DNA from: Clostridiales bacterium | GTDB lineage: Bacteria > Bacillota > Clostridia > Saccharofermentanales > Saccharofermentanaceae | Assembly: GCA_017515465.1 (NCBI GenBank) | Contig: JAFWFV010000005.1 | Coordinates: forward strand, 1 to 64,000 | Direction of reading: 5' to 3' | Length of the DNA stretch: 64,000 nucleotides | In this document: positions 53,234-54,639 of the stretch, piece by piece | Position numbering within the stretch: the stretch's first letter is position 1 | Layout of the letters: each line of letters begins with the position of its first letter | Notes under the pieces: generated by a model | What the model saw: the letters and a program-made list of their open reading frames with translations, nothing else | Databases searched by the model: none | What the model was told of the DNA's origin: nothing | Program-made: the position numbers and the translations under genes

Positions 53234-54325
53234 TTAATCGAACAGTATGCCCTTCATGCAGATCAGCGGTTCGTTCTTATCGTAATCCCAGGAATGGTAT
53301 GCCCCACCCCTGCAGAACTTTTTGTGTTCGCACTCACCGCATTTTGCGCAGTCATTTGACTTGTCACGCCTGAAGATCTCAAATCTGTTCTCCCAGACGT
53401 CCTTGAACCTGTCCTGTCTGATGTTTCCCTGAATGACGGCGGGATTCCTCTCGATATCCAGGCATGCACCTATGTCGCCGTTGCTCATGATGCTGGCAGT
53501 ATATACGCCTGCGTTGCACAGCCAGTACCACTCCCTGACCTCGACCTCGTAATCCAAGCCCAGATAATGGCTGCATCCGTAGAGTACCGGATATCCGTCC
53601 TTCCGGGCCTGCCTGATGAACTCGAACATCCTCCTGAGGTCATCGTCGGTGCACATCAGTTCGGGCCTGGTAAGAGCCCTGCCGATGGGCTCGAGATTAA
53701 TGACCCTCCAGGAATCGATATCGATCCCCTTCATGATCTCAAAGAGTTCGTCCAGCTCGTTTATGTTCTCATGGTTGATGACTGTTGTTATCTGAACGGA
53801 GGAAAAGGCATTCTCGTCGATCAGGTTCTGGACTCCGCGCATCGCCAGTTCATAACCTCTCTTAAATCCTCTGAGCTTGTCATGGGTATCAGGGAGGCCG
53901 TCTATGGAAACGGAAATTGTCTTCATTCCCGTCTCCGCCAGTTTATGGGCAACTTCCTTCGTGATCAGGGTTGCATTGCTTGTCATGCCCCACTTAAATC
54001 CCAGTTCGTTGGCATAGCTCATTATCTCAAAGAAATCCCTGCGCAGGAGAGGCTCTCCTCCCGTTATGCACAGCAGGATCTTGCTGATGTCGAAATCTTC
54101 CTTGATCTGGTCCAGGATGCGCTTATATTCATCTGTGGTGAGCTCGCCCGGCTGCGGCCTGTCGCAGTTGCTGCCGCAGTGGAAGCAGTGTTCATTACAT
54201 GCTGTGGTCAGTTCAAAGAACAGATGGCGCAGCTGAGGATGACGATACAAGCCCTCGACATATTCCGAGAGCTTTGTCATGTGATCTGTCTTTGCCTGGG
54301 CGATTACCGGATTAACAGGATTCAT
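53234..54325 (-). CDS. Radical SAM/SPASM peptide-modifying enzyme
   Basis: A 363-residue enzyme. The radical SAM cluster motif is CNEHCFHC (Cys43, Cys47, Cys50), followed by LLCITGGEPLLR. The C-terminal SPASM region has cysteines at about 270, 288, 326, 329, 332, 338 and 356, enough for two auxiliary clusters. GRALTRPEL and NGDIGACLDI are typical of peptide maturases. The start overlaps the stop of the VYGP-repeat peptide gene by 4 bases (ATGA), so the two are translationally coupled. The likely role is modification of that peptide, possibly at the repeated Tyr-Gly-Pro sites (inference). Confidence 0.85.
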   Translation of the reverse strand: MNPVNPVIAQAKTDHMTKLSEYVEGLYRHPQLRHLFFELTTACNEHCFHCGSNCDRPQPGELTTDEYKRILDQIKEDFDISKILLCITGGEPLLRRDFFEIMSYANELGFKWGMTSNATLITKEVAHKLAETGMKTISVSIDGLPDTHDKLRGFKRGYELAMRGVQNLIDENAFSSVQITTVINHENINELDELFEIMKGIDIDSWRVINLEPIGRALTRPELMCTDDDLRRMFEFIRQARKDGYPVLYGCSHYLGLDYEVEVREWYWLCNAGVYTASIMSNGDIGACLDIERNPAVIQGNIRQDRFKDVWENRFEIFRRDKSNDCAKCGECEHKKFCRGGAYHSWDYDKNEPLICMKGILFD

Positions 54326-54639
54326 CCCATATCTTCCGGAGGACCGTAAACGTCCTCATTCTCATTCAGATCGACCTTGTGGTCGAAACCGTCCGGAGGA
54401 CCGTAAACGTCTTCGTTCTCATTATCATCAGTCTGGTATGTGATCTCAGGTTTTTCAGTATCCTGCGTTTCTTCAGTAGTTGACGTAGGAGGGGGACCAT
54501 ATACATCTCCATTGATGTTATCGAGGATAGGCGCGGGTCCGTACACACATCCGTTTACGTTGCAGCCCAGTGTAAGAGTCGCAGCGATGCCTGCGATCAC
54601 CTTGGCAGCGGTAACACCATTTTTGCTTGGTTTCTTCAT
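54322..54639 (-). CDS. VYGP-repeat peptide, probable RiPP precursor
   Basis: A 105-residue peptide with a positively charged start, a hydrophobic stretch (about 10-25) ending in LTLGC (Cys26, an imperfect lipobox), then four VYGP motifs at about residues 32, 46, 78 and 97. The last two repeat as NENEDVYGPP, and their DNA is nearly identical too. The remainder is acidic and low in complexity. A short repetitive core after a leader, coupled to a radical SAM/SPASM gene, is the usual layout of a modified peptide. It also recalls the radical SAM-associated putative lipoprotein families. GGGGGTGA precedes the ATG; a GTG at 54645 is an alternative. Confidence 0.75.
   Translation of the reverse strand: MKKPSKNGVTAAKVIAGIAATLTLGCNVNGCVYGPAPILDNINGDVYGPPPTSTTEETQDTEKPEITYQTDDNENEDVYGPPDGFDHKVDLNENEDVYGPPEDMG

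Follow-up and report, generated by a model that had tools for sequence, protein, structure and literature searches.

A gene pair on the minus strand of the window (the whole stretch of DNA analysed, 64,000 nucleotides) codes for a short repetitive peptide and a radical SAM/SPASM enzyme, and represents a conserved and widespread system that has no name in Pfam or NCBIfam. Sequence comparison gives good support to the view that this VYGPP pair is a variant of the X-Tyr-Gly (XYG) radical SAM maturases, consisting of a maturase and its lipoprotein substrate. XYG is very probably the site at which the enzyme acts, while excision of tyramine at each VYG, proposed by analogy with the spliceases, has in our view about an even chance of being the reaction.

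The precursor gene (54322..54639, minus strand), delimited by its open reading frame and by homologues, encodes a predicted lipoprotein of 105 residues, MKKPSKNGV...VYGPPEDMG. Its start is an ATG, with an alternative GTG possible two codons upstream. As stated in the initial annotation, the peptide contains four VYGP motifs, two of them within NENEDVYGPP, which start at residues 32, 46, 78 and 97. All are encoded on the minus strand: motif 1, VYGPA (residues 32-36, 54532..54546), immediately follows the putatively lipidated Cys31; motif 2, VYGPP, occupies residues 46-50 (54490..54504); motif 3 (residues 78-82, 54394..54408) and motif 4 (residues 97-101, 54337..54351), the latter close to the C-terminus, are both VYGPP preceded by NENED. 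The layout of the peptide reads MKKPSKNGVTAAKVIAGIAATLTLGCNVNGC-VYGPAPILDNINGD-VYGPPPTSTTEETQDTEKPEITYQTDDNENED-VYGPPDGFDHKVDLNENED-VYGPPEDMG. When the peptide was shuffled 200,000 times, at least two VYGP arose in only 2 cases. Across the four motifs, Val is encoded by GTG, GTA and GTT, the Gly and Pro codons also vary, and identical codons are found only in the last two copies. It follows that the motif has a long history at the protein level and did not simply arise through a recent DNA repeat. The peptide had no match in Pfam or NCBIfam (the latter including TIGR04134 at E up to 1). Its stop codon overlaps the start of the enzyme gene by 4 nt (ATGA, 54322..54325, minus strand), as was originally noted. 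Among the 76 homologous peptides, 52 have a stop situated between -5 and +20 nt of a potential start of the enzyme.

Homologues of the precursor bearing one to eight XYG motifs were found at most enzyme loci. The 76 homologous peptides contained 268 XYG motifs in total. X is mostly Val (84%), followed by Leu (9%), and after YG there is Pro at the first position in 96% and at the second in 95%. Asn was present at position -5 in 75% of the motifs, often within D-P-x-x-N-E, Phe was frequent six residues past the Tyr, and the acidic, Asp/Asn-rich spacing around the motif was also conserved. In the closest relatives the motifs were kept, with no loss of YGP, and the linkers varied freely in length and sequence; outside the VYGPP motif, nothing in the mature peptides is strictly conserved. 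Since Cys is scarce and located outside the repeat, a thioether crosslink is unlikely. In a Blautia MAG (L111, 3692-3964), an enzyme of the VYGPP clade adjoins a peptide with LYAGP/IYAGP, representing a natural change of Gly to Ala after Tyr.

The lipoprotein-like leader that had been proposed for the peptide is supported by a hydrophobic N-terminal signal, TAAKVIAGIAATLTLGCNVNG (residues 1-30, 54550..54639, minus strand), which is followed by Cys31 in a lipobox-like V-N-G-C, in agreement with the relatives. The lipobox is imperfect, and a simple lipobox pattern was present in 50 of the 76 homologues. In 73 of 76 homologues (56 of 58 in Bacillota), the first XYG is preceded by a Cys at a distance of at most 25 residues. 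Most Bacillota peptides combine a hydrophobic signal with a Cys shortly before the first motif, and the NGC/TGC-VYGP arrangement was kept in most of 13 close relatives. These features lend moderate support to the peptide being lipidated. As for Actinomycetota, a twin-arginine signal RR-x-[FGS] (LTRRxFTAAGI...) was found in 14 of 18 peptide ORFs. The Tat system exports proteins after cytoplasmic folding or cofactor insertion; the Tat signals of coriobacterial peptides therefore fit, and suggest, modification preceding export. No TatC was detectable in the window's own genome, so that Sec is the most likely route for its peptide and Tat is argued for Coriobacteriia only.

The second gene (53234..54325, minus strand) encodes a radical SAM/SPASM maturase of 363 residues, assigned by means of Pfam (PF04055, 1.3e-26, and PF13186, 3e-8, both above gathering scores), NCBIfam, a phylogenetic tree and an AlphaFold2 model. 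In the clade alignment, the CxxxCxxC cysteines C43, C47 and C50 are followed by G51-S52, forming an HCGS signature (54170..54199, minus strand), and a second signature, E260-x3-R264 (53534..53548, minus strand), is located just ahead of the SPASM domain. The SPASM auxiliary-cluster region, defined from Pfam and alignment, extends from C270 to C356 (53258..53518, minus strand). The CxxxCxxC motif and seven C-terminal cysteines (270, 288, 326, 329, 332, 338 and 356) reported in the initial annotation are indeed present, but the latter are not the canonical SPASM seven. The enzyme possesses six of the seven cysteines of the canonical set (CX9-15GX4C, CX2CX5CX3C, C), the CX3C cysteine being replaced by A342, and C326 is poorly conserved (7 of 19 clade members). 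None of the 23 VYGPP and TIGR04133 enzymes sampled has the CX3C cysteine, but it is present in 8 of 8 enzymes of the TIGR04103/TIGR03913 type, which indicates that the auxiliary cluster ligands differ from those of spliceases. C251, just before the SPASM domain, is invariant in the same 23 enzymes and may replace the missing cysteine.

The AlphaFold2 model of the enzyme, built from an input alignment that excluded plasmid-collection sequences, had a mean pLDDT of 93.3. Its best matches among solved structures were SuiB (Z 26.9), anSME, SkfB, ChlB and CteB, these top matches being tied and revealing just the common SPASM fold; the epimerase EpeE was more distant (Z about 19.6). The fold alignment begins at about residue 25 of the enzyme, equivalent to SuiB residue 97, from which the enzyme seems to be devoid of an N-terminal RRE. 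No PlpY-like or PqqD-like gene adjoins the pair in the window; three unlinked PqqD-like proteins are encoded in the genome.

Among NCBIfam models, the enzyme scored highest with TIGR04133 (273.6 bits, cut-off 425), followed by AhbD (172.6), TIGR04053, mycofactocin (152.8), NirJ2 and others, and its score with TIGR04103 (123.5 bits, cut-off 725) was below those of AhbD and mycofactocin. The TIGR04133 cut-off was reached in none of 148 genomes of the class. In a maximum-likelihood tree of 41 sequences, in which few other SPASM families were sampled, VYGPP enzymes were sister to TIGR04133 (support 95/96), and together with TIGR04133, TIGR04103, TIGR03913 and relatives they formed one group on a 99/99 branch. 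AhbD-like, NirJ, TIGR04053 and MftC enzymes fell outside this group, and an earlier tree with other outgroups agrees on the grouping. G51 and S52 were found in 31 of 31 clade members (0/10 and 2/10 in outgroups), and E260 and R264 each in 30 of 31 (1/10 and 2/10 in outgroups). The kinship to the TIGR04133/TIGR04134 lipoprotein system that had been suggested from the first inspection is thus borne out by the tree, but membership in it is not, given the score below cut-off and the missing TIGR04134 match.

Neighbouring precursors of these related enzymes were read directly and X-Tyr-Gly proved common to them. TIGR04133 lipoproteins contain CYGMP, CEYGSP or CEYGTP soon past the lipobox Cys, and a Firmicutes relative of TIGR04133 (L113) is associated with LYGVP. 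TIGR03913 (GDL) peptides contain MLYGG and PYGV, the TIGR04103 precursor of Nostoc C057 ends with GGRGSIALYGLPPELF (ALYGLPPELF), and TIGR04103-like enzymes of Clostridia are neighboured by GG-leader peptides with PLYGIEP repeats. Two spliceotide-like loci (L119 and L120, in G139 and G172) combine LYGIEP-repeat GG-leader peptides with TIGR04103-like enzymes that have C-terminal TPR-like repeats. Another locus (L123 in G240, 404-2541) forms a parallel system, in which the neighbours of a TIGR04103-like enzyme are an ORF containing multiple VYAGP repeats and a zinc-ribbon protein with YAGP and YGGP.

Taken together, the clade and its common X-Tyr-Gly point to tyramine excision, i.e. splicease chemistry, and not to a cysteine-based crosslink. 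Other kinds of crosslink have to be weighed as well. The enzyme could form a carbon-carbon or carbon-heteroatom bond at YGP, for example a three-residue cyclophane from Tyr to Pro, leading to rigid rings. Cyclophane-forming SPASM enzymes typically use short aromatic-x-x motifs, the length of which is matched by Y-G-P, and SuiB, the nearest solved structure, is a crosslinking maturase. On the other hand, the tied fold matches do not single out a crosslinking fold, the dynobactin maturase DynA scored 70.5 bits with no other recognised cyclophane-maturase model among the best 25 NCBIfam matches, and precursors within the clade retain X-Tyr-Gly with a variable third residue (YGL, YGI, YGG, YGM, YGS). 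We consider crosslinking unlikely, yet the least unlikely of the alternatives. Somewhat more doubtful is that XYG undergoes a different kind of radical chemistry, for example with Val or Tyr being epimerised or Tyr oxidised, which would yield D-residues or oxidised Tyr. Related SPASM enzymes are chemically diverse, and the loss of a cysteine at position 342 along with the invariant C251 sets the cluster ligands apart from spliceases, both of which leave room for such a reaction; but MftC, which decarboxylates Tyr, falls outside the clade, EpeE is the more distant fold match, and Gly after Tyr is almost fixed, as in the splicease motif.

Of 115 genomes from the organism's own family, 62 possess the enzyme, and an independent scan added 80 loci belonging to Lachnospiraceae, Oscillospiraceae, Erysipelotrichaceae and Coriobacteriia, the two collections overlapping in part. 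The 115 family genomes were also scanned for a DNA pattern of repeated VYGP (two copies 24-54 nt apart), which was present in 45 of 62 genomes with the enzyme and in 0 of 53 without it (Fisher P 4e-18, shared ancestry uncorrected); a reversed control of the pattern gave three matches. A VYGP-type peptide was scored nearby in 68 of the 80 loci, where one locus (L062) was missed through the length filter and two (L080, L088) had little or no upstream sequence. Sometimes, the enzyme was without an adjacent precursor. In six of seven such genomes (L089, L091, L092, L093, L102 and L105), repeated VYGP was encoded elsewhere; in the seventh (L101) it was looked for and not found. While enzymes lacking an adjacent precursor might be taken as a sign that a repetitive lipoprotein and an unrelated radical SAM enzyme became adjacent by accident, most of these genomes still encode the peptide, and such an accident, next to impossible in our estimate, is refuted by the co-occurrence data.

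It was confirmed that no exporter or protease adjoins the pair, which is flanked by genes for Nfo (deoxyribonuclease IV) and a HAD hydrolase. When the ORFs surrounding the enzyme were clustered across the 80 loci, no shared partner gene emerged besides the precursor; the next clusters were an ABC-transporter-like group (8 loci, varying positions) and lineage-specific genes. The enzyme tree implies at least two phylum changes between Bacillota and Actinomycetota, which suggests transfer between phyla, and according to record titles many carriers originate from the herbivore rumen or gut. One candidate (L207, G102:C17, 1495-3360) was rejected as an intact enzyme, being a decayed paralogue whose SPASM part is no longer intact.

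Several genomes carry substrates that differ from the simple adjacent peptide. One genome (G062) encodes a second, unlinked precursor bearing three VYGP. Another (G376) also encodes a 160-aa lipoprotein in which CVYGPPVENEAPTVYGPP is followed by a globular domain. In two loci (L110 and L106), the enzyme adjoins lipoproteins of 276-304 aa with VYGP, VYGV and VYGI and an M15 peptidase domain (PF13539 in two proteins of L110, E 3e-18 and 7.5e-22). No second enzyme copy was seen at unlinked VYGP loci where these were examined. Unlinked precursors and larger VYG lipoproteins indicate that the enzyme appears to act in trans and on more than one lipoprotein. The pairing of peptide and dedicated maturase proposed in the initial annotation is therefore upheld by the co-occurrence, but the system is not a classic RiPP with a leader and a released core, as the motifs reside on predicted lipoproteins, substrates may be unlinked, and some substrates are large and folded.

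Two further observations concern the surroundings of such motifs. In several Lachnospiraceae (L165, L169 and kin, G375-G380), unlinked VYGPP precursors are located beside 2-oxoacid:ferredoxin oxidoreductase-like genes, away from the enzyme. The VYG lipoproteins with the M15 domain (D-Ala-D-Ala carboxypeptidase-like) are located at 2276-3982 of L110 and 3070-3981 of L106.

A small zinc-ribbon protein with a conserved CVYGPP between its zinc knuckles is encoded in the window's genome (G000:C26:44538-44819, L200) and in five related ones (L201-L205), among them one (G011) in which no enzyme was detected. It may be an extra client of the enzyme or an unrelated use of the motif. Its retention in G011 implies that the motif can serve a purpose even where it is not modified, and the conserved Asp/Asn-rich spacing might be read in the same way: VYGPP would be merely a docking or structural element, repeated for the sake of binding, and the enzyme would modify another part of the lipoprotein or a partner. 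We regard this as improbable, because the motif is the only strictly conserved mature part, is repeated one to eight times and tracks the distribution of the enzyme, and its XYG core is common to precursors of homologous enzymes.

We thus favour the following sequence of events, in which XYG is the site of action and tyramine excision the reaction. There are strong grounds for assuming that the cytoplasmic enzyme would bind X-Tyr-Gly-Pro, mostly Val-Tyr-Gly-Pro-Pro, in unstructured lipoprotein stalks before export. With moderate confidence, it would then excise C8H9NO from each Tyr, converting VYGPP into Val(alpha-keto-beta)-Gly-Pro-Pro. Export by Sec in the window's organism, or by Tat in Coriobacteriia, followed by lipidation would leave the cell surface decorated with as many as four electrophilic ketoamides per lipoprotein. 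More speculatively, these could inhibit proteases that cleave C-terminal to Val or Leu, or they could react with nucleophiles. The confidence in excision is lower than that in the site itself due to the loss of the CX3C cysteine, the lack of a PlpY-like gene and the presence of Tyr-Ala in two related systems (L111, L123); moreover, that the sampled TIGR04103 enzymes are spliceases is itself extrapolated from PlpX. Since all relatives of the enzyme accompany Tyr-Gly tagged proteins, the backbone of some envelope proteins is probably altered at such tags in rumen and gut bacteria, most likely through removal of the greater part of the tyrosine. The broadest version of the model is a tentative one: a single enzyme acting in trans might convert VYGPP tags of several envelope lipoproteins, including those with M15 peptidase domains, to internal alpha-ketoamides before Sec/Tat export, giving rise to multivalent surface protease inhibitors or reactive anchors. 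By analogy with spliceotides, there is a weak indication that modified lipoproteins act as protease inhibitors in rumen and gut.

The separately named families TIGR04133/04134, TIGR04103 and TIGR03913, together with the unnamed VYGPP family, are hereby joined as a single clade of X-Tyr-Gly maturases, which provides testable chemistry for the 'radical SAM-associated putative lipoproteins' of the gut. Should excision take place, ribosomal beta-amino acids would occur on surface proteins of many rumen and gut bacteria, at several sites per protein, and short VYGPP tags could be used to install ketoamides in proteins. Tat leaders and unlinked substrates make both the modify-then-export order and the substrate range directly testable.

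By family cut-offs, the enzyme belongs neither to TIGR04133 nor to TIGR04103, and the peptide does not belong to TIGR04134. The TIGR04133/TIGR04134 systems of Bacteroidota and Treponema are alike in that the enzyme adjoins a lipoprotein with YGxP soon past the lipobox Cys; their enzymes share HCGS, C251 and E260/R264 and have likewise lost the seventh SPASM Cys. However, the Bacteroidota/Treponema lipoproteins examined have only one such motif, close to the Cys, and their C-terminal domain is larger, whereas VYGPP is repeated one to eight times in Firmicutes and Coriobacteriia. The distinctness of the repeat form, suspected from the outset, is thereby supported, and this form has no family model of its own. 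In a literature search that did not cover Scott et al. 2022 (Chem 8:2659) and Richter et al. 2024 (Chem Sci), no relevant mention of TIGR04133, TIGR04134 or a VYGPP RiPP was found. TIGR03913 enzymes with DUF1843 peptides belong to the same clade, and the short peptides that they accompany have an LYG or PYG towards the N-terminus, but these are not lipoproteins and have no repeats, and the window enzyme scored 81.8 bits against a cut-off of 591.75. MftC, which acts on a C-terminal Val-Tyr together with MftB, is also a SPASM enzyme, but one from outside the 99/99 clade.

As for the spliceases, PlpX is described as an IPR026482 enzyme (PMC11002830), and PlpXY excises C8H9NO at XYG, naturally at MYG and LYG in PlpA (PMC10533398). 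Splice tags used with PlpXY include GGPIRPLYGLPI (PMC10533398; PMC11002830), spliceotides have been described as inhibitors of proteases (PMC11117315; PMC10373908), and 939 predicted splicease systems have been mentioned (PMC10533398). The system described here differs from TIGR04103 in its lipoprotein or Tat signal in place of a Nif11 or GG leader, in having no PlpY-like gene and in the loss of the CX3C Cys. It resembles the PlpX/TIGR04103 spliceases in belonging to the same 99/99 clade, in its X-Tyr-Gly motif, in the possibility of multiple sites per precursor and in sharing 7/8 to 8/8 signature residues with them.
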